This document shows positions 6,199-57,933 of a stretch of 64,000 nucleotides of DNA, one piece after another. The position numbers were made by a program, and so were the translations under genes. The DNA is from Lentzea atacamensis (GTDB lineage: Bacteria > Actinomycetota > Actinomycetes > Mycobacteriales > Pseudonocardiaceae), in the NCBI RefSeq assembly GCF_003269295.1, contig NZ_QLTT01000012.1, positions 8,811 to 72,810 on the forward strand, given 5' to 3'. Position 1 is the first letter of the stretch, and each line of letters opens with the position of its first letter. The notes below the pieces were generated by a model that saw only the letters and a list, made by a program, of their open reading frames with translations, was not told the DNA's origin and did no database searches.

Positions 6199-8361
6199 GT
6201 GGTCGACGTGATCACGCTGACGGCTCGCCTGTCCCCGTCCGCACTGGACACCCGTCGCGGCGTTGTCCGCCTCCACCCGGAGGTGCTCGACGCCTTGGGC
6301 CTGCGCGCCTGGGACGCCGTGAAACTGACCGGCGCCCGCGTGAGTGCCGCCCTGGCCGCCGCCGGTGAACAACCGCCTGGTGTGGTCCTCGTCGACGACG
6401 TCACCCTGACCAACCTGGGCGTGGTCGAAGGCTCCGAAATCGTCGTGGCCCCGGTCCAGGTGGCGGGCGCGCGCTCGATCACCGTCGCCGGCTCCCGCCT
6501 GGCCACCACCGCCCTGACTCCCGATCACGTTCGGTTGGCGTTGACCGGCAAGGTGTTGACGGTGGGCGACAACGTCTCGCTGCTCCCCCAGGACCTCGCG
6601 CCGCCGCCCGGCGCCAACGTCTCCGAAACGCGTCGCAAGCTCTCCAACGCCATCGGCATGACGTGGACCAACGAGCTGATCACCATCACCTCCACCGACC
6701 CGGCGGGCCCGGTGGCCGTACAGCCGTCGAGCGTGGTGGGCTGGCGCTCCGCCTCAGCCCCGGCCGCCGAGGTGACTCCCGTTGTGGTGCAGGAAAAGCA
6801 CGAGGCGCTCCCGGTGACGGACCTGGTGGGTCAGAAGGACCAGGCCCGCCGCCTGACGGAATGGCTGGAACTGATGTTCCGCCAACCCGAACTGCTGACC
6901 CGCCTGGGCGCCTCGGCCCGCCTGGCGGCCATGGTCAGCGGCCCGGAAGGCGTCGGCAAGGCAACCCTCGTCCGAGCCGTGGCCCGCTCCGTGGACGCGT
7001 CGATCGTGGAACTGGCCGCGCCGAGCATCTCCGTGCTGGAACCGGGCGCGATGGCCAAGCAACTGGGCGACGCGATCGCTGGCGTCCCGGAACAACCGAC
7101 GGTCCTGCTGATCACCGACATCGACGCCCTGCTACCGGCGTCACCCCCGCCGGTGGCCACTGTGGTCCTGGACATCCTCCGCACGGCCGTGTCCCGCCCG
7201 AACCTGGCCCTGGTGGTCACCTCGGCCCGTGCCGAGTCGGTCGACTCCCGCCTGCGAGCCCCCGATCTGGTCGACCGCGAACTGACCCTCCCGCTCCCGG
7301 ACGGCGCCACCCGCACCGAACTGTTGCGCGTCCTGCTCCGCGACGTCCCACTGGAGTCCGATGTGGACTTCGGCGCGGTGGCCGAACGCGCCCCGGGCTT
7401 CGTGGCCGCCGACCTCTGCGCCCTGCGCCGCGAGGCAGCGGTCCGGGCAGCCCTGCGCCAGCGCGAAGTGGCAGAACCTCGCGTGGGCCAAGAAGATCTG
7501 CTGGGCGCCCTGAACACCGTCCGCCCCATCTCGATGTCCGCGTCCGACACCGTCCAGACCGGCGGACTGACCCTCGACGACGTGGGCGACATGACCGAGG
7601 TGAAGCAGGCCCTGACCGAAGCAGCCCTCTGGCCTCTCCGCTACCCGGACTCCTTCGCCCGCCTGGGCGTGGCTCCCCCGCGCGGTGTCCTGCTCTACGG
7701 CCCTCCCGGCTGCGGCAAGACCTTCCTGGTGCGCGCCCTGGCAGGCTCAGGCCAGCTCAACGTCCTGACCGTCAAGGGCGCCGAACTGATGGACAAGTTC
7801 GTGGGCGAGTCAGAACGAGCAGTCCGCGAGCTGTTCCGCCGCGCCGCCGACGCCGCCCCCGCCCTGGTGTTCCTGGACGAGGTGGACGCCCTGGCCCCAC
7901 GCCGAGGCCAGTCGTCCGACGCCGGTGTAGCAGACCGAGTAGTGGCAGCTCTGCTGACCGAACTCGACGGCGTGGAACCACTCCGCGACGTGGTGGTGAT
8001 CGGCGCAACGAACCGCCCCGACCTGCTGGACCCGGCGCTGCTGCGTCCTGGCCGCTTGGAGCGCCTCGTCTACGTGCCACCGCCAGACACCGACGCACGC
8101 ACCGAGATCCTCAAGGCCGCATCGCGCAACACGCCACTCACAGACGACGTGGACCTGGCCGCCCTGGCCGGCGAGCTGGAGGGGTACTCGGCCGCAGACT
8201 GCGCGGCTTTGGTGCGAGAAGCAGCGCTGACGGCAATGCGGGAGTCGCTGGAGGCAGCCGAGGTAACCCAGGCCCACCTGGCGAAGGCCCGCGAGGTGGT
8301 CCGCCCGTCGCTGGACCCGGTACAGCTGGCCTCGCTTGCGGCCTATGCAGCGACCCGCTGA
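6199..8361 (+). CDS. CDC48/p97-like AAA+ ATPase with two AAA domains
   Basis: 720 aa, GTG start. Residues 1-180 form a CDC48-type double-psi barrel N-domain (LSPSALDTRRGVVRLHPEVL). The first AAA domain has a weakened Walker A (GPEGVGKAT, ~250) and a Walker B with ITDIDALLP instead of DE, so it may bind but hydrolyse poorly. The second is canonical: GPPGCGKTF (~500), FLDEVDALAPRRG (~557), ATNRPDLLDPALLRPGRLERL. Such proteins unfold or remodel substrates in the cytoplasm. Mycobacteria carry a homologous ATPase (Rv0435c) beside pssA, so the Rhs material has separated two ancestrally adjacent genes. The substrate is unknown. Confidence 0.9.
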   Translation: MVDVITLTARLSPSALDTRRGVVRLHPEVLDALGLRAWDAVKLTGARVSAALAAAGEQPPGVVLVDDVTLTNLGVVEGSEIVVAPVQVAGARSITVAGSRLATTALTPDHVRLALTGKVLTVGDNVSLLPQDLAPPPGANVSETRRKLSNAIGMTWTNELITITSTDPAGPVAVQPSSVVGWRSASAPAAEVTPVVVQEKHEALPVTDLVGQKDQARRLTEWLELMFRQPELLTRLGASARLAAMVSGPEGVGKATLVRAVARSVDASIVELAAPSISVLEPGAMAKQLGDAIAGVPEQPTVLLITDIDALLPASPPPVATVVLDILRTAVSRPNLALVVTSARAESVDSRLRAPDLVDRELTLPLPDGATRTELLRVLLRDVPLESDVDFGAVAERAPGFVAADLCALRREAAVRAALRQREVAEPRVGQEDLLGALNTVRPISMSASDTVQTGGLTLDDVGDMTEVKQALTEAALWPLRYPDSFARLGVAPPRGVLLYGPPGCGKTFLVRALAGSGQLNVLTVKGAELMDKFVGESERAVRELFRRAADAAPALVFLDEVDALAPRRGQSSDAGVADRVVAALLTELDGVEPLRDVVVIGATNRPDLLDPALLRPGRLERLVYVPPPDTDARTEILKAASRNTPLTDDVDLAALAGELEGYSAADCAALVREAALTAMRESLEAAEVTQAHLAKAREVVRPSLDPVQLASLAAYAATR

Positions 8362-8419
8362 CGTTGATGAGGGGAGCTTTCCTCAACCCGAGGTTGAGGA
8401 AAGCTCCCCTCATCAACGT
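8361..8419. terminator. Perfect 27-bp hairpin between convergent genes
   Basis: Stem 8361-8387 pairs perfectly with 8393-8419; loop CCGAG. It overlaps the ATPase stop codon by one base and touches the stop of the opposite gene. The core GGGGAGCTTTCC resembles palindromic intergenic repeats I recall from Amycolatopsis-type genomes, so it may be a dispersed element used as a bidirectional terminator. Confidence 0.8.
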
Positions 8420-9019
8420 CTACTTGTTCTTAGAAGCGCCCTGATAGTCATTGGTGACGATCAAAATGATCCCGGGCGCGGACGACTGAATCCCGTCAAA
8501 CCGAGGCTCAACCCGAGCCCGCAACACCGAAGCCAGCTCCTTCGCAGAAGCCTCTTCCTCAGTCCCAGGCCGGAAGTACACGGTCGTAGTGGGAATCGTC
8601 CCCTGCGAGTAGTTCCCGGTCCCCTCGACATTCCACCCGTTGGCCCGGACATCGTCCGCAGCCTTGACCGCCAACCCGGTGATGGTCGAGTTGTTGTAAA
8701 CCCGAACCGGCACCTTCGCAGCCCCGGGCTGCGTAACGGGAGGCGGCGGCACCGCGGCAGAAGACGTGGGCGGCACAGTGGTGGTCGGCGGAACCGTGGT
8801 GGTCGTCCCCGCGGGCGCCGACGACGGTGTGGAAGGCGGCTCAGACCCGGTCTGAGCTGGAGGCGCGGTCGAACTCCCCTCAGCGGAGGGCGGTGTGTCA
8901 GACCCTCCACCGAAGAGGCTGACGACGCCGATGATCAAAGCCACCGCGGCTACACCCAGCAGAGCGAAGCCGGCGGCCTTTGCCGGACGGGACGGGCTTG
9001 CGGACTCGGGGGAGGTCAT
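8420..9019 (-). CDS. LytR_C domain membrane protein
   Basis: 199 aa from the ATG at 9019, which shares its A with the TGA of the upstream gene (TGATG). Layout: a short cytoplasmic N-terminus, one membrane helix (about 16-36, AAGFALLGVAAVALIIGVV), a Pro/Thr/Ser-rich linker to about residue 105, then an extracytoplasmic LytR_C domain (KVPVRVYNNSTITGLAVKAADDVRANGWNVEG). The orthologue in M. tuberculosis (Rv0431) sits in the same order beside a DUF3263 gene and def. Role in the envelope is presumed but not shown. Confidence 0.8.
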   Translation of the reverse strand: MTSPESASPSRPAKAAGFALLGVAAVALIIGVVSLFGGGSDTPPSAEGSSTAPPAQTGSEPPSTPSSAPAGTTTTVPPTTTVPPTSSAAVPPPPVTQPGAAKVPVRVYNNSTITGLAVKAADDVRANGWNVEGTGNYSQGTIPTTTVYFRPGTEEEASAKELASVLRARVEPRFDGIQSSAPGIILIVTNDYQGASKNK

Positions 9020-12246: not shown

Positions 12247-12328
12247 CTGGAAGAGATTAGGGGCAAAGGGCGCCCTTGGCAGCTGTGGCGCGCGCTGACT
12301 ATGGTCGGGTCTCGACAACTCAACACAA

Positions 12329-14904
<2,576 letters not shown>

Positions 14905-18093: not shown

Positions 18094-19052
18094 GAGCTTC
18101 CTCCCTTGAGCAGCTCGACCACGAGACGAGCGGTGTGCGGGGCGAGCAGGAGACCGTTGCGGTGGTGGCCGGTCGCGGCGATCACGCCGGGTTCGAGCCA
18201 GCGCACGACCGGGACGTTGTCGGGGCTGCCCGCACGGAACCCGACGGCGGTCTCGGTCAGCGCGTATTCGGCGATGCCCGGCAGCACGGTTTCCGCGTCC
18301 CGCAACAGGTCCCGCACGCCGGCGACCGTCACGTCGGTGTCGAAGCCCGCCTCGTACTGGGTGGCGCCGACCACCAGGCCGTCGTCGCGCGGCACCAGGT
18401 ACACCGGCCGGCCGGAGACCAGCGCGCGGATCGTGTGCTTCGGCGGTGGCAGGGCACCTGGCCGATGCGTGAGCCTGAGGATCTCGCCCTTCACCGGGCG
18501 GATGACGTCGCGCAACGCGGGGTGCAGCCGGCCGCTCCACGCGCCGGCGGCGATCACCTGCACCGTTCCGTCCACATCGGACCGCACACCTGCTTCCACG
18601 CATGCCTTCCACAAAGCGGAAAGCAACGCGCGGTTGTCGACCGCGAGGTCACCCGACGCGTACACACCGCCACGGACCGCAGGCCCCAGCGACGGTTCCA
18701 GCGCGCGGATCTCCCGTGAGGTCAGCAGCTCCCCCGCGTGCCGCAGGTCGGCGAGATCACCGGGCTGGGTGCCGACCGCGAGAGTGCCCGCGGTGAACAG
18801 TTCGACACCGATCGACGACGCGAAGGCAGGCCACATCGCCAGTGCCTCAACACCCTGCGCCACCACGGCTTCCTCGCCGGGCCACGCCTCCGTGAGCGGC
18901 GCGAGCATGCCGCCCGCGACCCGTGAGCCCGCGTGCGGCGAGCCCTCGTCGGAAACGGAAACCGAGTAGCCGGCCCGTGCCGCGGCCAACGCGACGGACA
19001 GGCCGATGACACCGCCACCCCGGACGGACACTTCCACAGTCAAGGCATTCAC
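18090..19052 (-). CDS. thiO: Glycine oxidase (thiamine biosynthesis)
   Basis: 320 aa from GTG 19052; because that codon is only one base after AGGGAG, the TTG or GTG a few codons later may be the true start. FAD-dependent oxidase giving dehydroglycine for ThiG. The dinucleotide-binding fold starts at once: [27 protein letters not shown]. Also visible are [54 protein letters not shown] and [17 protein letters not shown]. Somewhat shorter than many ThiO. First gene after the second TPP riboswitch. Confidence 0.92.
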
Positions 19053-19053
19053 G

Positions 19054-19147
19054 CTCCCTGCGCCGGCATGACCCGGATCAGGTTCGACGGTCGGAGCGAA
19101 CCACGCTCCCTCTCAGCCCGGTCTTCTCCAGGCTCCCGTGCGGACCG
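19054..19147 (-). ncRNA. TPP riboswitch (THI element) upstream of thiO
   Basis: Read on the minus strand: CACGGGAGCC, CCGGGCTGAGAGGGAGCG, a short GC hairpin, then GACCGTCGAACCTGATC, CGGGTCATGCCGGCGCAGGGAG. All pyrophosphate- and pyrimidine-binding helices are recognisable. The 3' AGGGAG is also the ribosome site of thiO, so control at translation is likely, as for the thiC switch. Confidence 0.95.
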
Positions 19148-19175
19148 ACACCAACATAACGGTTACGGTGCGAGC

Positions 19176-48242: not shown

Positions 48243-49160
48243 ATGGATCTGGTGGTCGGACTCGACGCGGGTGGCACGTCAACGAGGGCGCTGGTGCTCG
48301 ATCTCGACGGCGCCCGCCTGGGTCAGGGCGTGGCGGGCGGCGCGAACCCGAACTCGCACCCGCCATCGGTGGCCGCCGCCCACATAGGCGAGGCCCTGGC
48401 GGAAGCCCTGGACGGCCTCGACTCCCGCAAGGTCCGCTCCGGCGTCCTGGGCATGGCCGGCGCCTCGAAACTGTCCGACCCTGCCATCTCCGCGCTGTTC
48501 CAGGAAGCCTGGGAACGCGCGGGCCTGCAGTGCCCGATGCGCGTGATCACCGACTGCGAGGCCGCCTTCGCCACCGGCACGTCGTCCCCCGACGGCACGG
48601 TCCTGGTGGCGGGCACGGGTTCCATCGCAGGACGCGTGGTGGACCACCGCATGGTCGCCCAGTCCGGCGGCTACGGCTGGCTGATCGGCGACGACGGCTC
48701 GGCGTTCTGGCTGGGCCGCGAAGCCGTCCGCGCGACGTTGAGGCTGCTGGACCTCGGCGCACCTCTGGAAGGCCTCGCCACCGCGGTGCTGACGGCGGCC
48801 GGCGCGCGCGGCCGAGGCCAGCTGATCAACGCCGTCAACGCCCAGCCACCCATCGCGATGGCGCAGTTCGCCCCGCTCGTCAGCGCCGCCTACCACCACG
48901 GCGATCCAGAGGCCCTGACGATCGTGGCGTCCGCGGCACGGTTGCTCGCCGACACGGCCTCCGCCGTCCGCGAGCCGTCCGACACCTCCCCGATCGTGCT
49001 CGTGGGCAGTCTGATCAAGACGCCGGTCGGCACCCATCTGAAGCAGGAACTGCTCACGCGCAGCGACGCCCAGGTGATCATGGCGACGGAGGGAGCGGCG
49101 GGCGCGGCCTGGCTGGCCGCCGTTGACGTGCTGGGACCGACCGCCCCGCGGCCGGCTTAG
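48243..49160 (+). CDS. BadF/BadG-family N-acetylglucosamine kinase
   Basis: 305 aa. ASKHA kinase fold: VVGLDAGGTSTRALVLD (phosphate 1), ITDCEAAFATG, TVLVAGTGSIAG (phosphate 2), GGYGWLIGDDGSAFWLG and IVLVGSLIKTPVG (adenosine). These are the marks of eukaryote-type GlcNAc kinases. It makes GlcNAc-6-P from GlcNAc and so would feed NagA and the SIS enzyme of the das locus 15 kb away. Single gene; no dre-like site seen upstream. Confidence 0.87.
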   Translation: MDLVVGLDAGGTSTRALVLDLDGARLGQGVAGGANPNSHPPSVAAAHIGEALAEALDGLDSRKVRSGVLGMAGASKLSDPAISALFQEAWERAGLQCPMRVITDCEAAFATGTSSPDGTVLVAGTGSIAGRVVDHRMVAQSGGYGWLIGDDGSAFWLGREAVRATLRLLDLGAPLEGLATAVLTAAGARGRGQLINAVNAQPPIAMAQFAPLVSAAYHHGDPEALTIVASAARLLADTASAVREPSDTSPIVLVGSLIKTPVGTHLKQELLTRSDAQVIMATEGAAGAAWLAAVDVLGPTAPRPA

Positions 49161-50365: not shown

Positions 50366-51577
50366 ATGCGTGCCGGAAGCCCACGACTGCTGCGGGAGAT
50401 CAACGACCGCGCAGCCATCGAGGCTTTGCTGCGCAACGGGCCGCTGACCAGGTCGGAGTTGGAGGGCCTGATCGGCCTCTCCAAGCCGGCGACCGCACAG
50501 CTGCTCACCCGGCTGGAAACCGCCGACACCGTGGTCCGCAACGGACTGCGCGGTGGTGGACGCGGGCCGCGTGCCCAGCTGTGGTCGGTCAACGGGGCCC
50601 TCGCGCACATCGCGGCAATCGACCTCACCCCCGAGACGGTCGACATCGCGATCGCGGACATCTCCGGTGCCGTGCTCACCGAGTACAAGGCGCCGATGCC
50701 CGTGAAGCACGGTGTGCTCGAGGCGCTCGTGAGCGCGGTCGGCAAGGCGTGCGGGCAGGCAGGTCTCGCGCCCGACCAGTTGCTGCACGTCGTGGTGGGC
50801 TGTCCTGGCGCGGTGAACCCCGCGAACGGCGAGCTCGCCTACGCGCCACATCTGCCCGGCTGGAGCGGTTTCGACATGCCCGGCCGGTTGCGGGAGCAGC
50901 TCGCGACGTCGGTGAGCGTCGAGAACGACGTCAACCTCGTCGCGCTGGAGGAGATGGTCGCCGGACGGGCCACGAAGGTGCGCGACTTCGTCGTCATCTG
51001 GCCCGCGGACCTCGTCGGTGCCGCTGTCGTGATCAACGGGGTGCTGCTGCGCGGCGCTTCCGGTGGCGCGGGCGAGATCGACGGGCTGATGATCCCCGAC
51101 CGCGCATCGGCCGACACCGACACCGACCGCTCCGGCGGCACGTTCGGTGAGCTGCTCAGCAACGCATCGATCTGCAAGCTCGCCAGGGCTCACGGGCTCG
51201 CCGCGCGCAACGGCCACGGTGCCGTGCGCAAGGCGTTGGCCGCGGGGCCGGCGGGCAGGGAGTTCATGGTCGATCTCGCCAGGCGCATCGCCACGGGTGT
51301 GGCCAGCGTCGTCGCGGTGCTCGACCCGGAACTCATCCTCCTGTCCGGCGACATCGCCCAGGCAGGGGGAGCCACGCTGAACGATCTCGTTGCCGCGGAA
51401 CTGCGGCAACTGGTGGTGCCGAGGACTCCGGTCCAGCTGGCCCTGGTGACCGGGAAGCCGGTGCGCAGCGGCGCACTGCACTCGGCACTGGCCGTCGCGC
51501 GCGAGCAGGTCTTCGGCCTGCCGGCAGCCACCACGGCTCCATTCCGCGGCCCTGTGGTCGCCGGGTCCCCACGTTGA
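50366..51577 (+). CDS. ROK family transcriptional regulator
   Basis: 403 aa. N-terminal winged helix (INDRAAIEALLRNGPLTRSELEGLIGLSKPATAQLLTRLE), then a ROK sugar-kinase-like domain. Substrate loop LVGAAVVINGVLLRGASGGAGEIDGL is kept, but the Zn motif CxCGxxGC is absent and the ATP motifs are weak, so it is a sensor rather than a kinase. Located 16 bases before the ABC transporter genes in the same direction, so it probably represses this operon and responds to its sugar. Confidence 0.9.
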   Translation: MRAGSPRLLREINDRAAIEALLRNGPLTRSELEGLIGLSKPATAQLLTRLETADTVVRNGLRGGGRGPRAQLWSVNGALAHIAAIDLTPETVDIAIADISGAVLTEYKAPMPVKHGVLEALVSAVGKACGQAGLAPDQLLHVVVGCPGAVNPANGELAYAPHLPGWSGFDMPGRLREQLATSVSVENDVNLVALEEMVAGRATKVRDFVVIWPADLVGAAVVINGVLLRGASGGAGEIDGLMIPDRASADTDTDRSGGTFGELLSNASICKLARAHGLAARNGHGAVRKALAAGPAGREFMVDLARRIATGVASVVAVLDPELILLSGDIAQAGGATLNDLVAAELRQLVVPRTPVQLALVTGKPVRSGALHSALAVAREQVFGLPAATTAPFRGPVVAGSPR

Positions 51578-51593
51578 TCGAGAAGGAGTGCAC

Positions 51594-52922
51594 ATGCGCA
51601 AGCACACCCGTGCTGCCTTGCTCTGTGTCGCCGCAGCGCTGACCCTCACCGCATGTGCGGCGGGCAAGGGTGGCGGCTCCACCACCGACGGTGCTGCCGC
51701 TGCTCCCGGTAAGGACGACAAGCTCACGCTCACGGTCTGGAGCAACTACTCCGACCGCGAGTACGAAGAGGTCACCAAGGCCCTCAAGACGTTCAACAAG
51801 AAGTTTCCGAACATCGAGATCAAGCACGAGGGCTCGCAGGACGACGACAAGATCACCGCGGGTATCCGGTCCGGCAACACCCCGGACGTCGCGCTGTCGT
51901 TCACCACCGACAACATCGGCCAGTTCTGCTCCTCCGGCGCGTTCCAGGCGCTGAAGCCGTACATCGACCGCGACAAGGTCGACCTGAACCAGATCTCCCC
52001 CGCGGTCAGGGAGTACACCGAGTACAAGGGCAACCGCTGCGCGATGCCCATGCTCACCGACGTGTACGCCATGTACTACAACAAGGACATGATGTCGGCC
52101 GGCGGCGTCACGGCCCCGCCGAAGACGCTGGACGAGCTGTTCGAGGCCGCGAAGAAGCTGACCAAGAGGGCACCGAACGGCGACATCGAGGTCGCGGGTT
52201 ACCTGCCCACGATGGGCTTCTACGCCAACCGCCCGACCATCCTGGCTCCGTCGTTCGGTGCCGAGTGGGAGAAGGACGGCAAGTCGGCGCTCGCCTCCTC
52301 GCCCGGTTTCGCCGAGATGATGACGTTCCAGAAGAAGCTCGTTGACTTCTACGGCTTCGACGCGCTGGAGCGCTTCCGCGCGGGTCTCGGCCAGGAGTAC
52401 TCGGCCGACCACGCGTTCCACCAGGGCAAGATCGCGATCATGATGGACGGCGAGTACCGCACCGCCTTCCTCAAGGCCCAGGCGCCGCAGATCAAGTTCG
52501 GCACGGCTCCGTTCCCGACCTGGAAGCCCGCCGACTACGGCACCGCCTTCACCACCGGCACGATCATGGGCATTCCCAAGGGCGCCAAGAACCCCGGCGC
52601 CGCGTGGGAGCTGATCAAGCACCTGTCGTTCGACACCGACACGATCGTCGATCTCTCCAACGCCATCAAGAACGTGCCGAGCACCAAGGCCGCGATGGAG
52701 AGCCCGAAGCTCCAGGTGGACGAGCAGTTCAAGACGTTCATCGACCTGGCCAAGAGTGACAAGCTCAAGGGCAACCCGGTCACCCCGATCGGTGACGCGC
52801 ACATCAAGGCCGTCACGGACTTCGCGGTGTCCTACACCTCCGGCAAGGTGCCGGACCTCGCAGCCGGTCTGAAGGAAGTCGACAAGAACATCGACGACCA
52901 GATCGCCAAGAGCGGCAAGTAA
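51594..52922 (+). CDS. Sugar-binding lipoprotein of CUT1 ABC transporter
   Basis: 442 aa from ATG 51594, with GAAGGAG 5 bases upstream. Lipobox LTAC (LCVAAALTLTACAAG). Extracellular solute-binding fold (LTLTVWSNYSDREYEEVTKALKTFNKKFPNIEI, DVALSFTTDNIGQF, MPMLTDVYAMYYNKDMM). Binds an oligo- or disaccharide; the GH4 enzyme in the operon points to a beta-glycoside. Confidence 0.9.
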   Translation: MRKHTRAALLCVAAALTLTACAAGKGGGSTTDGAAAAPGKDDKLTLTVWSNYSDREYEEVTKALKTFNKKFPNIEIKHEGSQDDDKITAGIRSGNTPDVALSFTTDNIGQFCSSGAFQALKPYIDRDKVDLNQISPAVREYTEYKGNRCAMPMLTDVYAMYYNKDMMSAGGVTAPPKTLDELFEAAKKLTKRAPNGDIEVAGYLPTMGFYANRPTILAPSFGAEWEKDGKSALASSPGFAEMMTFQKKLVDFYGFDALERFRAGLGQEYSADHAFHQGKIAIMMDGEYRTAFLKAQAPQIKFGTAPFPTWKPADYGTAFTTGTIMGIPKGAKNPGAAWELIKHLSFDTDTIVDLSNAIKNVPSTKAAMESPKLQVDEQFKTFIDLAKSDKLKGNPVTPIGDAHIKAVTDFAVSYTSGKVPDLAAGLKEVDKNIDDQIAKSGK

Positions 52923-52934
52923 GGGATTCCCACG

Positions 52935-53909
52935 ATGACCGCCACGCTCGGCGCTCGGCCCGCCCCCGGCAGGGGGCGGGCACGTGCCCGCCACCGTCTC
53001 GCCGTGCTCGGGTTCATGGCCCCGGCAATCATCGGCTTCGTCCTGTTCTTCGGCTATCCGCTGGTCGCCACGGTCGTCTTCTCGTTCACGAAGTACGACC
53101 TGATCAACGCGCCGGAGTTCAACGGCCTCGACAACTACACGTTCATGTTCAAGGATCCCCTGCTGATCAAGGCGATCACGAACACGCTGTGGTTCGTCCT
53201 GGTGCTCACGATCGCGCGGACGGTGTTCGCGCTGGGTGTGGCGTCGGTCATCGCTCGTCTCAAGTCGGGCGTCGGGTTGATCCGCACGCTCTGCTACCTG
53301 CCCTCGCTGGCACCGCCGGTGGCCGCGACACTCGTGTTCTTCATGGTGTTGCGCCCCAACGGTGGTCCGGTCGACAACCTGCTCGGTGTCTTCGGGATCG
53401 ACTCGCCGCTGTGGTTCTCCGACCCGGCGTGGGCCAAGCCCGGCATCACCGCGATCATGCTGTGGATCTCCGGCGACCTGATGATCATCATCCTGGCGGC
53501 GATCCTCGACGTGCCGCAGGAGCAGTACGAGGCGGCGGAGCTCGACGGCGCCGGCCCGATCCGGCGCTGGTGGCACGTCACGCTGCCGACGATCTCGCCG
53601 GTGCTGCTCTTCGGCATCGTGAACTCGGTGATCCTCGCGTTGCAGCTCTTCACACAGGCGGTCGTCGCGGGGTCGGCCGGCTCGGGAGCCGCGGACGCGA
53701 CGGGATCGACCAAATATCTCGGTTTCCCGGACAACTCGACGCTGACGTTCCCGGTTTACCTGTACACGCAGGGCTTCCGCTACTTCGACATGGGCTACGC
53801 GGCCGCGATGGCCACGCTCCTGTTCATCATCTCGTTCGCCGTGACCATCGTGCTGGTTCAGCGGATGCGCAAGAACTCCACCGCCGAGGAAGGGGGTCCG
53901 GGAGCATGA
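52935..53909 (+). CDS. Sugar ABC transporter permease (MalF type)
   Basis: 324 aa, six membrane helices, first at about 25-45 (AVLGFMAPAIIGFVLFFGYPLV). EAA loop QYEAAELDGAGPIRRWWHVTLPTISP near residue 200. Stop overlaps the next ATG (ATGA). No ATPase in the operon, so a shared MsiK-like ATPase is expected. Confidence 0.9.
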   Translation: MTATLGARPAPGRGRARARHRLAVLGFMAPAIIGFVLFFGYPLVATVVFSFTKYDLINAPEFNGLDNYTFMFKDPLLIKAITNTLWFVLVLTIARTVFALGVASVIARLKSGVGLIRTLCYLPSLAPPVAATLVFFMVLRPNGGPVDNLLGVFGIDSPLWFSDPAWAKPGITAIMLWISGDLMIIILAAILDVPQEQYEAAELDGAGPIRRWWHVTLPTISPVLLFGIVNSVILALQLFTQAVVAGSAGSGAADATGSTKYLGFPDNSTLTFPVYLYTQGFRYFDMGYAAAMATLLFIISFAVTIVLVQRMRKNSTAEEGGPGA

Positions 53910-54799
53910 CCGCCACGCTGACCAAACCACCGGTCGACGTCCCCGCGGATCCGGAGCAGCCGCGCAGGAAGCGCGACGTCGGCGGCTTCCTGAACTGGGT
54001 CGCCACGCACGCGATCGGCCTCGCGCTCGGCCTGATGTTCGCCACCCCCGTCGTGTTCGTCTTCCTCACCGCGGTGATGTCCGACGACCAGGCGTTCACC
54101 GCGGACCTGTGGCCGCGCGAGTGGCACTGGGAGAACTTCGTCGAGGTCTTCGACAAGGCCCCGCTGTTCCAGTACCTGATCAACAGCCTCACGTACTCGC
54201 TGCTCGCGACCGCCGGGATGCTGATCTCGTCGATCCCCGCGGCCTACGCGCTCGCGAAACTCCAGTGGCGCGGCCGGAACCTGGCCTTCCTGCTGGTCAT
54301 CGGCGCGATGATGCTGCCGCCGCAGGTCGTGGCGGTGCCGCTGTACGACACGTGGTCCTCACTCGGCCTGACGGGCACGCTGTGGCCGTTGGTCGTTCCT
54401 TACTTCTTGTTCGACGCGTTCAGCATCTTCCTGCTGCGCCAGTTCATGCTCACCATCCCGCAGTCCTATGTGGACGCGGCGAGGGTGGACGGCTGCTCGG
54501 AGTTCCAGGCGCTGGTCCGGGTCATCGTGCCGATGGCGAAGCCCGGCATCGCTGCCACCGCGCTGTTCTGCTTCCTCTTCACCTGGAACGACTACTTCGG
54601 CCCGTTGCTCTACACCGGCGAAGTGAAGGACCAGTGGACGTTGTCGCTGGCACTGGCGACGTTCAAGGGCATGCACATCGTCCAGTGGAACTCGTCGATG
54701 GCGGTGACGTTCCTGACGATGATCCCGGCCGTCGTCCTCTTCGTCTTCGCCCAGAAGTCGTTCGTCAAGGGAATCACGTTCACGGGAGTCAAGGGATGA
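53906..54799 (+). CDS. Sugar ABC transporter permease (MalG type)
   Basis: 297 aa from ATG 53906. Six membrane helices; EAA loop YVDAARVDGCSEFQALVRVIVPMAKPG (about residue 190); C-terminal QKSFVKGITFTGVKG. Both permeases begin MTATL, perhaps by chance. Its stop overlaps the GH4 start (ATGA). Confidence 0.9.
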   Translation: MTATLTKPPVDVPADPEQPRRKRDVGGFLNWVATHAIGLALGLMFATPVVFVFLTAVMSDDQAFTADLWPREWHWENFVEVFDKAPLFQYLINSLTYSLLATAGMLISSIPAAYALAKLQWRGRNLAFLLVIGAMMLPPQVVAVPLYDTWSSLGLTGTLWPLVVPYFLFDAFSIFLLRQFMLTIPQSYVDAARVDGCSEFQALVRVIVPMAKPGIAATALFCFLFTWNDYFGPLLYTGEVKDQWTLSLALATFKGMHIVQWNSSMAVTFLTMIPAVVLFVFAQKSFVKGITFTGVKG

Positions 54800-56064
54800 A
54801 ACTCACCGTCGTCGGTGGCGGGTCCACCTACACACCTGAGCTGATCGACGGCATCGCCGGCCGCCGCACCAGCCTGGCGGTGGACGAGATCGTCCTGGTC
54901 GACCCGGACGAGCACCGCCTCTCCGTCGTCGGCCCGTTCAGCCAGCGCCTGCTGGAGCACGCGGGTCACCCGGCGAAGGTGCGCACCACCACGTCGCTCG
55001 AGGATGGCGTCGAGGGCGCGTCCGCGGTGCTGCTGCAGCTGCGCGTGGGCGGCCAGAAGGCCCGCGCTTCGGACGAGACGTTCCCGCTGACCTGCGGTTG
55101 CGTCGGCCAGGAGACCACCGGTGCCGGAGGCCTCGCCAAGGCCCTGCGCACCGTGCCGGTGGTCCTGGACATCGCGGACAAGGTGCGCCGGCTGGCCGGC
55201 GAGGACACGTGGATCGTGAACTTCACGAACCCGGTCGGCATCGTGACGCGGGCCCTGCTGCAACACGGCCACAAGGCGATCGGCCTGTGCAACGTGGCGA
55301 TCACGTTCCAGCGCTGGACCTCCGCCCTGCTGGGCGTCGACCCGTCCACAGTGGAGCTGGAGCACGTCGGCCTGAACCACCTCACGTGGGAGCGCGGCGT
55401 CTACGTCGACGGCGTCGACCGCCTGCCCGAACTCCTCTCCGACCACGTCGAGGGACTGGCCGAGCACATCGGCATCGACGGCGCGCTGATGCGACGCCTG
55501 AACATGGTGCCCTCGTACTACCTGAACTACTTCTACAACCACGACGCCGTCGTGAAGAAGCAGCAGACCGAACCACCGCGCGCCGAAGTCGTGGCAGCGG
55601 TCGAAAAGGAGCTGCTGGACATCTACGGCGACCCGTCGGTCGTGACGAAGCCGGAACAGCTCGGCCAGCGCGGCGGCGCCTACTACTCCGAGGCGGCCGT
55701 ACAACTGGTGCACGCGCTGACAGGCGGCGCCGGCGCCGAAAAGCATGTGGTGAACGTGCAGAACAACGGCACCCTCCCGTTCCTGCCCGACGACGCCGTG
55801 ATCGAAGTTTCGTCCACTGTGGATTCTTCTGGTGGCGCACCGCTACCGGTCCGCCCCGTGGAACCGTCCATCTCCGGCCTGATCTCGCACGTGACCGCGT
55901 ACGAGTACCTGGCACTGGAGGCGGCACTCCACGGCAGCCGTGACCGAGTGGCGAACGCGCTGCTCGCCCACCCGCTGATCGGCCAGCACGCCATCGCGGA
56001 CCAGCTGGCCGACGAGCTGATCGCGCAGAACCGCGATCTGCTTCCGTGGGTGAAGGGAGCCTGA
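54796..56064 (+). CDS. GH4 family glycosidase (6-phospho-beta-glucosidase like)
   Basis: 422 aa. NAD+- and metal-dependent family 4: LTVVGGGSTYTPELIDGI (NAD), QLRVGGQKARASDETFPL, GCVGQETTGAGGLAKALR, NFTNPVGIVTRAL, GLCNV (metal Cys), and GLNHLTWERGVYV (metal His). Closest to 6-phospho-beta-glucosidases. These need a 6-phosphorylated substrate, yet uptake here is by an ABC system that does not phosphorylate. The kinase gene 5 bases downstream could supply the phosphate. Confidence 0.9.
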   Translation: MKLTVVGGGSTYTPELIDGIAGRRTSLAVDEIVLVDPDEHRLSVVGPFSQRLLEHAGHPAKVRTTTSLEDGVEGASAVLLQLRVGGQKARASDETFPLTCGCVGQETTGAGGLAKALRTVPVVLDIADKVRRLAGEDTWIVNFTNPVGIVTRALLQHGHKAIGLCNVAITFQRWTSALLGVDPSTVELEHVGLNHLTWERGVYVDGVDRLPELLSDHVEGLAEHIGIDGALMRRLNMVPSYYLNYFYNHDAVVKKQQTEPPRAEVVAAVEKELLDIYGDPSVVTKPEQLGQRGGAYYSEAAVQLVHALTGGAGAEKHVVNVQNNGTLPFLPDDAVIEVSSTVDSSGGAPLPVRPVEPSISGLISHVTAYEYLALEAALHGSRDRVANALLAHPLIGQHAIADQLADELIAQNRDLLPWVKGA

Positions 56065-56069
56065 AACCG

Positions 56070-57089
56070 ATGACCGACCGGGTGCTAGCCATCGACGGCG
56101 GGAACAGCAAAACCGCTGTGCTGCTGGTCGACGCGGACGGCAAGGTGCTGGCGCAGGTGCGCGGCCCCGGCGCCCCGCCGCAGACCGTGGGCATGAAGCG
56201 CGGACTGGACGTGTTCGAAAGCCTGGCACGCGAAGCCGCGGCACAAGCGGGCCTGTCCCCCGACGAGCCGATCGCCACGCACACAGCCGCCTACCTGGCC
56301 GGGGCCGACCTGCCCCGCGAGGAGGAGGACCTGACGCGAGCGATCTCCGAACGAGGCTGGTCCCCTTCCGTAGTGGTCGGCAACGACACCTTCGCCCTCC
56401 TCCGCTCCGGCACAGCCTCCGGTGTAGGCGTGGCCGTGGTGTGCGGCGCGGGCATCAACGCAGTCGGCGTGGCAGCAGACGGCCGCACCCACCGCTTCCC
56501 GGCCCTGGGCCCGATCTCCGGCGACTGGGGCGGCGGCGGCCACCTGGGCGAACAAGCCCTCTGGCTGGCAGTCCGAGCGGAAGACGGCCGAGGCAAGCCA
56601 ACCGAGCTCCTCCCAGCCCTCCTGGAACACTACGGCGAGACCTCAATCGCCGACGTGGTCGAAAAACTCCACTTCGAAGAAGTGAAGTTCGACCCGCACG
56701 CCCTCTGCCCGATCCTCTTCGAGGTCGCCGGCCACGGCGACCCGGTGGCCCGGTCCATCGTCGACCGCCTGATCGAGGAAATCGTTCTCCTGTCAACGGT
56801 GTCACTGCGCAAGCTCGACCTGGTGGACGAGGCCGTGGACGTCGTACTGGGCGGCGGCGTGATGACCGGCACGGGCGAAACAGTCCTGGCCCCGGTCCGC
56901 AGGCAAATCCTGGACGTGGCCCCTCTGGCCCAGGTCCGGGTGGTCGACCTCCCCCCAGTGGTAGGCGCCGCACTGCTGGGCCTGGACACCATCGGTGCCT
57001 CGCCGGGCGCAGAGCTGAGGCTGCGCTCGGCCTACGACGACCACCTGCCGGCCACAACGTCCACCCTGGACGTAGCGGCCAGCGGGTGA
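56070..57089 (+). CDS. BadF-family sugar kinase (GlcNAc kinase-like)
   Basis: 339 aa from ATG 56070, 5 bases after the GH4 stop. ASKHA fold: VLAIDGGNSKTAVLLVDADGKVL, VVGNDTFALLRSG, GVGVAVVCGAGINAVGVA, ISGDWGGGGHLGEQALW and VVLGGGVMTGTG. Phosphorylates a hexose or amino sugar, or perhaps the intact disaccharide before GH4 cleavage. Last gene of the ROK-ABC-GH4 operon. Distinct from the kinase at 48243. Confidence 0.85.
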   Translation: MTDRVLAIDGGNSKTAVLLVDADGKVLAQVRGPGAPPQTVGMKRGLDVFESLAREAAAQAGLSPDEPIATHTAAYLAGADLPREEEDLTRAISERGWSPSVVVGNDTFALLRSGTASGVGVAVVCGAGINAVGVAADGRTHRFPALGPISGDWGGGGHLGEQALWLAVRAEDGRGKPTELLPALLEHYGETSIADVVEKLHFEEVKFDPHALCPILFEVAGHGDPVARSIVDRLIEEIVLLSTVSLRKLDLVDEAVDVVLGGGVMTGTGETVLAPVRRQILDVAPLAQVRVVDLPPVVGAALLGLDTIGASPGAELRLRSAYDDHLPATTSTLDVAASG

Positions 57090-57095
57090 CAGACC

Positions 57096-57242
57096 CCGTC
57101 TCGGGGGGTAGATCGGCGGCGGCGCCCCCTGAGACGGTCCCAACCCCACTGCTCGGGGCAGACAGGCGGCGGCGTCCCGAGCAGTGGCCCAACCCCTTTC
57201 CGAGGGGGAGCTGATCGGCGGCGGCGCTCCCCTTCGGAAAGG
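57096..57242 (+). ncRNA. Three tandem hairpins with changing stems and a conserved 16-nt GGCGGCGGCG loop
   Basis: No gene is present in 57090-57471. Unit 1: stem 57096-57108 with 57125-57137. Unit 2: 57146-57158 with 57175-57187. Unit 3: 57195-57210 with 57227-57242. Stems of 13, 13 and 16 bp have different sequences but pair almost fully. Every loop is 16 nt: TAGATCGGCGGCGGCG, CAGACAGGCGGCGGCG, CTGATCGGCGGCGGCG. Units repeat every ~50 bases with CCCAACC-like linkers. Base changes that keep pairing point to selection on RNA or DNA structure. Class unknown. Confidence 0.7.
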
Positions 57243-57250
57243 TCCCACGG

Positions 57251-57292
57251 CCCCCGCAGCGACGTCACGCGCCGACGTCGCTGCGGGGGTTT
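57251..57292 (+). terminator. Strong intrinsic terminator after the hairpin array
   Basis: 16-bp perfect stem (57251-57266 with 57274-57289), loop ACGCGCC, followed by TTT. Ends the ROK/GH4/kinase operon after the three hairpins, so the array would be part of its 3' untranslated RNA. Confidence 0.88.
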
Positions 57293-57365
57293 CCCTTTGG
57301 GGCACACAAGTCCTCGCGCGGCACGCGCCACATCTCGCGAAGGCGAAGCCGAGCATGGCACGCCT

Positions 57366-57416
57366 GTTGCGTTGGGCGCGGTCAGATTGGCGGGGTCCGG
57401 AACCCGCCAACGCAAC
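57366..57416 (-). terminator. Two competing hairpins at the 3' end of the minus-strand hypothetical gene
   Basis: A 10-bp stem pairs 57366-57375 with 57107+300 region 57407-57416 (GTTGCGTTGG arm). An alternative 8-bp stem pairs 57387-57394 with 57403-57410 (TTGGCGGG arm). Both need 57407-57410, so they cannot fully coexist. Probably a terminator for the gene at 57472-57933. Confidence 0.5.
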
Positions 57417-57471
57417 CGGGGGACGACCCACCCAACCGGCGCGCAAACGCCGGAACGGCGCCCCCCCAAGA

Positions 57472-57933
57472 TCAGGGCTCAACCACAACGGACGACGAAG
57501 GCGAACCAGACACAGCCGAAGACGACAACGAAGGCAACGAAACCGAAGGCACCACAGTCGTCCCCACCACACTCACCCGAGGCTCCTCCCGCTCAACCTC
57601 CGGCGTGACAACAGGATTCGAATGCGGCGGCGAAGTAACCACAGGCCGCCCAGACGGCCGCCCCGACGGCGCCACCCGCACGGCGGAAGGCACAGGGGTG
57701 AACTCCATGGGCGGCTGATCCCCACCGATCTGAGCCACCTCAGGCTCAACGGGGGCAGCATCAGACGGCCCAGGTACCGTCACAACCCCGGTGGACATCG
57801 CCAGCCCGGCAAGAACCCCGACTGTGACAAGCGCGACACCCACCGAAACGGAGGGAAGCGGCAAACCAGAACGCACCCGCGAGAAGGTAGCGACCAAACA
57901 AGACGAATCCCCTCGATCCGCCTGCAGCGCCAC
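57472..57933 (-). CDS. Hypothetical membrane protein with Pro/Ser/Val-rich C-terminus
   Basis: 153 aa from GTG 57933, chosen for GAGGG 7 bases upstream; the frame is open further but that part is a low-complexity leader. Begins VALQADRGDSSCLVATFSRVRSGLP, then one membrane helix (about 28-50, LPSVSVGVALVTVGVLAGLAM) and an extracytoplasmic tail rich in Pro, Ser, Val and Thr (TPVPSAVRVAPSGRPSGRPVV). No family recognised. Confidence 0.5.
   Translation of the reverse strand: MALQADRGDSSCLVATFSRVRSGLPLPSVSVGVALVTVGVLAGLAMSTGVVTVPGPSDAAPVEPEVAQIGGDQPPMEFTPVPSAVRVAPSGRPSGRPVVTSPPHSNPVVTPEVEREEPRVSVVGTTVVPSVSLPSLSSSAVSGSPSSSVVVEP

Follow-up and report, generated by a model that had tools for sequence, protein, structure and literature searches.

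A candidate structured RNA with repeated hairpin loops behind the sugar-kinase gene of Lentzea

What could maintain three tandem hairpins, built on stems of differing sequence and sharing the same bases at their apices, immediately after the final gene of a putative sugar-uptake operon? The question concerns a short segment of the window, that is, the whole stretch of 64,000 nucleotides of Lentzea atacamensis DNA that was analyzed here (host genome, 9.3 Mb). For this segment, the original prediction had offered a repeated protein-binding RNA motif, a 3'-UTR sponge or a DNA element as possible identities. We address the question by locating the array within its operon, by following it across related genomes, and by weighing what might recognize its loops.

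The array within its operon

The same-strand gene cluster that runs from a ROK regulator through a solute-binding protein, two permeases and a GH4 glycosidase to a sugar kinase (Table 1) is read as an operon, with the start of the GH4 gene taken as the ATG that overlaps the stop codon of the upstream gene. The order from ROK to GH4 is kept in all 11 relatives that were read, in three of which the available stretch ends before the kinase. The NagK_SO3507 model scores the kinase far under its cut-off. A second BadF-type kinase gene (48243-49160, + strand) ends about 1.2 kb upstream of the ROK gene. Among the 10 Lentzea operons read, the sole interrupted one belongs to G011, one of the two genomes that lack the array, where an OrfB_IS605/TnpB-type gene (Pfam PF01385, PF07282) lies between the second permease and GH4 (locus L173, 5287-6507, minus strand). 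Separately, a similar-looking gene start was read directly 5' of the kinase in L026 and L028, and G016 (L169) carries an extra ~240 nt, with partly similar ends, at the junction of the second permease and GH4.

Table 1. Coordinates of the array and of the surrounding features in the window
Feature	Position	Strand	Remarks
ROK regulator	50366-51577	+	upstream operon gene
Solute-binding protein	51588-52922	+	upstream operon gene
Two ABC sugar permeases	52935-53909, 53906-54799	+	upstream operon genes
GH4 family glycosidase	54796-56064	+	Pfam PF02056 and PF11975
BadF/NagK-type sugar kinase	56046-57089	+	Pfam PF01869; last gene of operon
Hairpin 1 (H1)	57096-57137	+	CCGTCTC... / ...GAGACGG; apical GATCGGCGGCGGCG; arms 57096-57108/57125-57137, 92% complementary, 16 nt between
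Hairpin 2 (H2)	57146-57187	+	CCACTGCTCGGG / CCCGAGCAGTGG; apical GACAGGCGGCGGCG; arms 57146-57157/57176-57187, 100% complementary, 18 nt between (16 with an added G-U pair)
Hairpin 3 (H3)	57195-57242	+	CCTTTCCGAGGGGGAGC / GCTCCCCTTCGGAAAGG; apical TGATCGGCGGCGGC; arms 57195-57211/57226-57242, 94% complementary, 14 nt between
Apical core GGCGGCGGCG of H1	57115-57124	+	same core at 57165-57174 (H2) and 57217-57226 (H3)
Terminator-like hairpin	57251-57298	+	16-bp stem 57251-57266/57274-57289, 16/16 paired; loop ACGCGCC (57267-57273); tail TTTCCCTTT

Three tandem hairpins are indeed present where they had been predicted, between the kinase stop codon, 6 nt before H1, and the terminator, and the expected period of about 50 bases is borne out by start-to-start spacings of 50 and 52 between the aligned hairpin copies. 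The claim that stems of differing sequence stay paired also stands, except that the stems are longer than had been given, with arms of 12-17 nt. By contrast, the invariant 16-nt loop was an overstatement: between the arms lie 14-18 nt, of which 8-10 are invariant, the part common to the three loops being GGCGGCGGCG only, and the left half is variable (TAGATC, CAGACA, TGATC). The predicted fold of 57085-57300 has a free energy of -140.4 kcal/mol, compared with a mean of -106.7 (sd 5.2; z -6.5) for 200 dinucleotide shuffles, none of which folds as well. In H1 and H3, and not in H2, RNAfold closes part of the 'loop' into UCG-GCGG-CGG, above unpaired purines. This apical mini-stem (positions -2:+7, -1:+6 and 0:+5) has standard pairs in 57 of 66 distinct units, which is no evidence of covariation because its 3' side never varies.

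The strong terminator that had been predicted downstream is convincing by eye and in comparison among genomes, but a consensus terminator scan of 56800-57600 reported none; perhaps, and this is a guess, a G-T extension of the stem consumes two T residues of the tail. The terminator stem covaries across 21 sequences. Of the 22 Lentzea sequences with the array, 19 were aligned, and 17 of these have the terminator loop ACGCGCC. A GCGCC version of the loop occurs in two Saccharothrix, and such conservation of a loop seems unusual for a terminator. In three Lentzea genomes (L080, L088 and L095), none of the downstream genes of the window lies within 4 kb of the kinase and the array is kept.

Pairing and distribution across genomes

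The pairing of three different stems within one locus had been taken as direct evidence of covariation. Such evidence is weak alone, unrelated hairpins also being paired, and it is the comparison between genomes that makes the case. Of 24 Lentzea genomes, 22 have the array on the 3' side of the orthologous kinase when the loci are read without any model, L. xinjiangensis and L. fradiae being the species without it, and a covariance model built from 28 of the units in these loci recovers the same 22. In an alignment of 66 distinct units, which was fitted to the structure of the model, 97.9% of the cells form standard pairs, compared with 74.5 for shuffled alignments; both sides have changed in 11 of the 13 pairs, with 196 double-change cells against a shuffled mean of 50.5; and the covariation score is 0.672, as opposed to 0.207 in shuffles and 0.03-0.13 (maximum 0.128) when the structure is slid along the alignment. 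MAFFT alignments that comprise orthologs only and were not fitted to the structure point in the same direction with less variation. In the outer stem of H3, all pairs are standard (100%) and 4 of 8 have changed on both sides, a count reached by 0 of 500 shuffles; in H2, pairs are likewise 100% standard, with a covariation score reached by 1 of 500 shuffles and 2 of 13 pairs changed on both sides, which 135 of 500 shuffles reached. H1 is uninformative within the genus because its outer stem hardly varies (identity 0.994). Farther away, in Saccharothrix and Umezawaea, most stems are wholly different, for example CCGGTGCGGGGGAG, and yet are paired, although units with disrupted stems do exist (Lentzea sp. 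NBRC 105346).

The mismatches that are tolerated carry information on the strand. When gapless stems were called by Watson-Crick pairs only, 61 units yielded 33 G-U against 3 A-C combinations, and at the 13 model pairs of the 66 units the numbers are 47 and 7, all these being counts over related units rather than independent events. This excess points to selection on the RNA of the plus strand. As far as sequence comparison can establish it, then, the array is conserved as a plus-strand RNA structure, the stem sequence of which can change if pairing is kept; both the 66-unit covariation and the ortholog alignments uphold the proposal that a 3' UTR carries a covarying RNA array here, and the RNA-structure part of the reading is well supported. 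Coding, or readthrough of the kinase stop codon, was rejected as an explanation: of 45 spacings between cores, 33 are not divisible by 3 (the three residues modulo 3 are represented 24, 12 and 9 times), and counting from the stop codon places the first core in every reading frame (8, 8 and 6 of 22).

The taxonomic range seems narrow. The model matches 29 of 64 named kinase-homologue loci at E <= 0.01, namely, 20 of 22 in the Lentzea group, both from Umezawaea, 6 of 11 from Saccharothrix and the single one from Solihabitans, and none of the other 28 kinase-homologue loci, including those of Streptomyces and Actinokineospora, at the same threshold. In all, four genera have the array together with the kinase gene. 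Among 297 genomes of the family, 32 match (E <= 0.01): the 22 of 24 Lentzea, three of the Umezawaea group, six of the Saccharothrix group and a single weak case in genus g20 (E 0.008), in which the inner stem is mostly unpaired and the kinase is absent from the 3.4-kb contig. All 10 matching genomes from the Saccharothrix and Umezawaea groups, nine of them found in the family search and one in the order-wide search, have the hairpins immediately 3' of a kinase that is 70-73% identical. Wider searches used the model R2, stricter filters and the best 15-20 candidates per genome. Of 397 genomes of the order, 11 match, comprising three Lentzea, two of the Saccharothrix group and six isolated weak cases (E 0.010-0.046 for one genome, where about 20 are expected by chance at E 0.05), and of 394 genomes of the class, four match, one being the genome studied here and the other three weak. 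The kinase is present in none of the nine weak order- and class-level loci (3 kb each). The true range may be somewhat wider, given that so few candidates per genome were scored in these two samples. Within Lentzea genomes, 20 sub-threshold matches (24.6-29.1 bits, E 0.08-0.84) are taken as chance after eight sequences were retrieved and three aligned. The search of actinomycete genomes with a covariance model, which had been suggested as a check, has thus produced further examples in which pairing is kept, rather than none or unpaired ones.

Where the array occurs, the number of cores is generally 1-3. Locus L021 has two hairpins, and L023 (Lentzea sp. NBRC 105346, 2512-2812) has five cores on stems that are largely different and in two cases disrupted, such that natural variants with 0, 1, 2, 3 or 5 cores are available. 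In two units of L023, a GATACAGCGG insertion is present and most of the stem is gone, as if units were duplicating and decaying. The array is evidently dispensable, because two Lentzea species and 5 of the 11 Saccharothrix loci are without it.

The conserved core and what might read it

In contrast to the stems, the apex does not change: all 66 distinct units carry the same GGCGGCGG, next to variable bases on its 5' side. This invariance is partly circular, given that the units were found by a core-trained model or by the core itself. No core-less units were seen in the arrays when 24 loci were read by eye. In a comparison of the 20 three-hairpin Lentzea genomes, the identity of the ten-base core is 0.956-0.972, that of the outer stems 0.854-0.994, and that of the six bases to the left of the core 0.48-0.71, whereas mean pairwise identity at four-fold sites of the kinase is 0.64. 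The core stands far above both the four-fold sites and its own left flank, and is therefore under selection of its own.

Stems that are free to change, a fixed apex, repetition and a 3'-UTR position together resemble a multivalent recognition element for a trans-acting factor. The reading that we favor, tentatively and with somewhat less than even confidence, is that the array is a multivalent 3'-UTR docking site for a trans-acting binder, probably a protein, which would tune decay or processing of the mRNA or else be titrated. Under this scenario, the array would be transcribed together with the operon as the 3' UTR of its mRNA, each unit being a long clamp stem that presents the fixed GGCGGCGG apex; the apex would be read copy by copy by the factor, most likely an RNA-binding protein; and multivalent binding would set the life-time or the processing of the operon mRNA, either by protection or by recruitment of an RNase. 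Alternatively, the 3' UTR, once released, might titrate the factor. Long stems of this kind would be natural substrates of RNase III, and cleavage by this enzyme could set the 3' UTR free as a small, stable RNA. Since exact-word searches and the 6C RNA yielded no complementary RNA site, a protein is favored as the binder; what counts against docking is that a low-complexity, G-rich core is an unusual target for a protein. A protein-binding motif or sponge, one of the identities originally offered, accordingly remains the best guess, its RNA part being supported by the comparison of genomes, whereas the binder and its effect are what we infer. A more far-reaching version, that the array represents a new, uncatalogued RNA family, the GGCGGCGG apex of which is a multivalent dock or sponge for a candidate actinobacterial RNA-binding protein and couples expression of the sugar-uptake operon to the level of free protein, strikes us as rather doubtful.

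The loop might also have no partner at all, in which case the stacked stems would mechanically protect the 3' end, blocking 3'-to-5' exoribonucleases or stopping Rho. The high stability of the long stems that immediately follow the last gene, the variation in the number of cores from 1 to 5, and the apparent absence, by eye, of the downstream terminator from several arrays (L097, L102, L104, L022, L098, L099 and L111) are all compatible with such a role. It leaves unexplained, however, a core that is 96-97% identical next to left-hand bases at 48-71% and four-fold sites at 64%, and we consider it unlikely.

About equally improbable, in our assessment, is that the partner is another RNA, the 3' UTR being or releasing a small RNA that pairs with C-rich sites, or acting as a decoy for a small RNA. 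Decoys of the latter kind have a precedent in chb mRNA, which plays this role for ChiX. SroC, in excerpts of a review (PMC9438474), is a sponge for GcvB, and the same excerpts present the 90-nt s-SodF of Streptomyces as a small RNA derived, like SroC, from the 3' UTR of a metabolic mRNA that ends in a terminator. In favor of an RNA partner are the short fixed motif, set on several loops, and a 3' UTR with its own terminator, and, judged from sequence, the array lies where such 3'-UTR-derived RNAs lie, between stop codon and terminator; by this analogy, its release as a stable RNA is plausible. Unlike s-SodF and SroC, the array has three copies of one loop, and no complementary target was found for it in pairing tests that covered exact words and the 6C RNA. 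The complementary word CCGCCGCC occurs 0-4 times in each of 12 operon regions, at 22 sites in total, and no place is common to more than two of the 12 genomes (codon ~111 of P2 in two Lentzea; near the ROK end in one Umezawaea and one Saccharothrix genome, 3 codons apart), such that cis antisense pairing with the operon was rejected. Exact complements of GATCGGCGGCGGCG outside the array number four in the host genome, all in stop-to-stop frames of at least 261 codons, and thus probably lie within genes. The 6C RNA (RF01066), of which the genome has one copy over the cut-off (C12:198013-198087, on the same contig, outside the window), was rejected as a trans partner: its best duplex with the array loop (-12.5 kcal/mol) is interrupted and falls on the first C-run loop of 6C, and among 1984 stretches of 120 nt taken at random from the window, 1977 do as well or better. 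A G-quadruplex, considered on paper, was rejected too, a fourth GG having to come from the stem.

Control of termination in cis, by a kissing interaction between the terminator loop ACGCGCC and GGCGC of an array loop, is quite improbable. The two loops are complementary over 5 nt, and both the conservation of the terminator loop (17 of 19 aligned Lentzea) and covariation of the terminator stem would fit, but a random 7-nt loop at 70% GC matches likewise in 5.7% of trials, no compensatory change between terminator and array loops was seen, and by eye that terminator is missing in two Umezawaea, three Saccharothrix, Solihabitans and L. jiangxiensis. Finally, a DNA-level element (a REP- or MITE-like repeat, a recombination site or a cruciform), to which the repeated inverted structures and the extra, partly broken units of one genome might hint, is the least probable identity, and a DNA repeat or mobile element was rejected: in the genomes read, the array occupies a constant position after the kinase, the bias of G-U over A-C is strong (33 to 3), there are no dispersed strong copies, with nothing outside arrays better than E 0.08 among the 150 best candidates scored in each of 24 genomes, and the suggested search of the host genome for the loop flanked by an inverted repeat gave three matches to a looser pattern, all within the array.

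Relation to known RNAs

The array had been presented as matching no known class, and this proved correct for Rfam 15, in which no family reaches its gathering score at the array; the 13 matches up to E 5 at 56900-57500 are all well under gathering, and the sodF_sRNA model yields chance-level 21.8 and 20.8 bits (gathering, 46). No report of the array was found in the open-licence literature. We describe it as a candidate structured RNA that displays one loop in tandem and has a narrow taxonomic range.

Several known systems are similar in part. The CsrB and RsmZ RNAs, which are separate genes and not operon 3' UTRs, show GGA to CsrA on many hairpins. The array resembles sponges of this type in that one short motif is set on many hairpins, in their case for one protein, and differs in that its shared apex is GGCGGCGG, not GGA, and in that it is set in an operon 3' UTR. 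The 6C RNA is likewise an actinobacterial set of tandem hairpins with low-complexity loops, but these hold C runs, and the array gave no match to the 6C model. The ANTAR substrate RNAs of EutV, NasR and AmiR are, according to excerpts of PMC3369931, hairpins with 3-bp stems and hexanucleotide loops bearing A1 and G4, which sit in leader regions and compete with a terminator. As in the array, the dual hairpins of this class combine tandem arrangement and conserved loop residues with proximity to a terminator, and their loops are read by a protein (same excerpts, PMC3369931). The differences are substantial: the arms in the array are 12-17 nt long, with 14-18 nt between them and a GGCGGCGG apex; a GCGG tetraloop is predicted as the sub-fold of H1 and H3; and the array follows the last gene, where the terminator stem is distinct from H3, the predicted fold containing both.

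To our knowledge, Hfq-like global RNA matchmakers are not established in actinomycetes. In the excerpts of the review cited above, the sRNA-related RNA-binding protein of Streptomyces is called 'currently elusive' (PMC9438474). A short RNA that repeats one loop three times, has swappable stems and comes in natural variants with 0, 1, 2, 3 or 5 cores would be a near-ideal bait for such a protein, and a simple phenotype for scoring is provided by the conserved operon.

The only matches in the window that exceed an Rfam 15 gathering score are two TPP riboswitches, at 12320-12444 (+) and 19038-19149 (-). At 8360-8420 of the window, a perfect inverted repeat of 28 bp encloses a 5-nt loop and is the longest of the hairpins listed.
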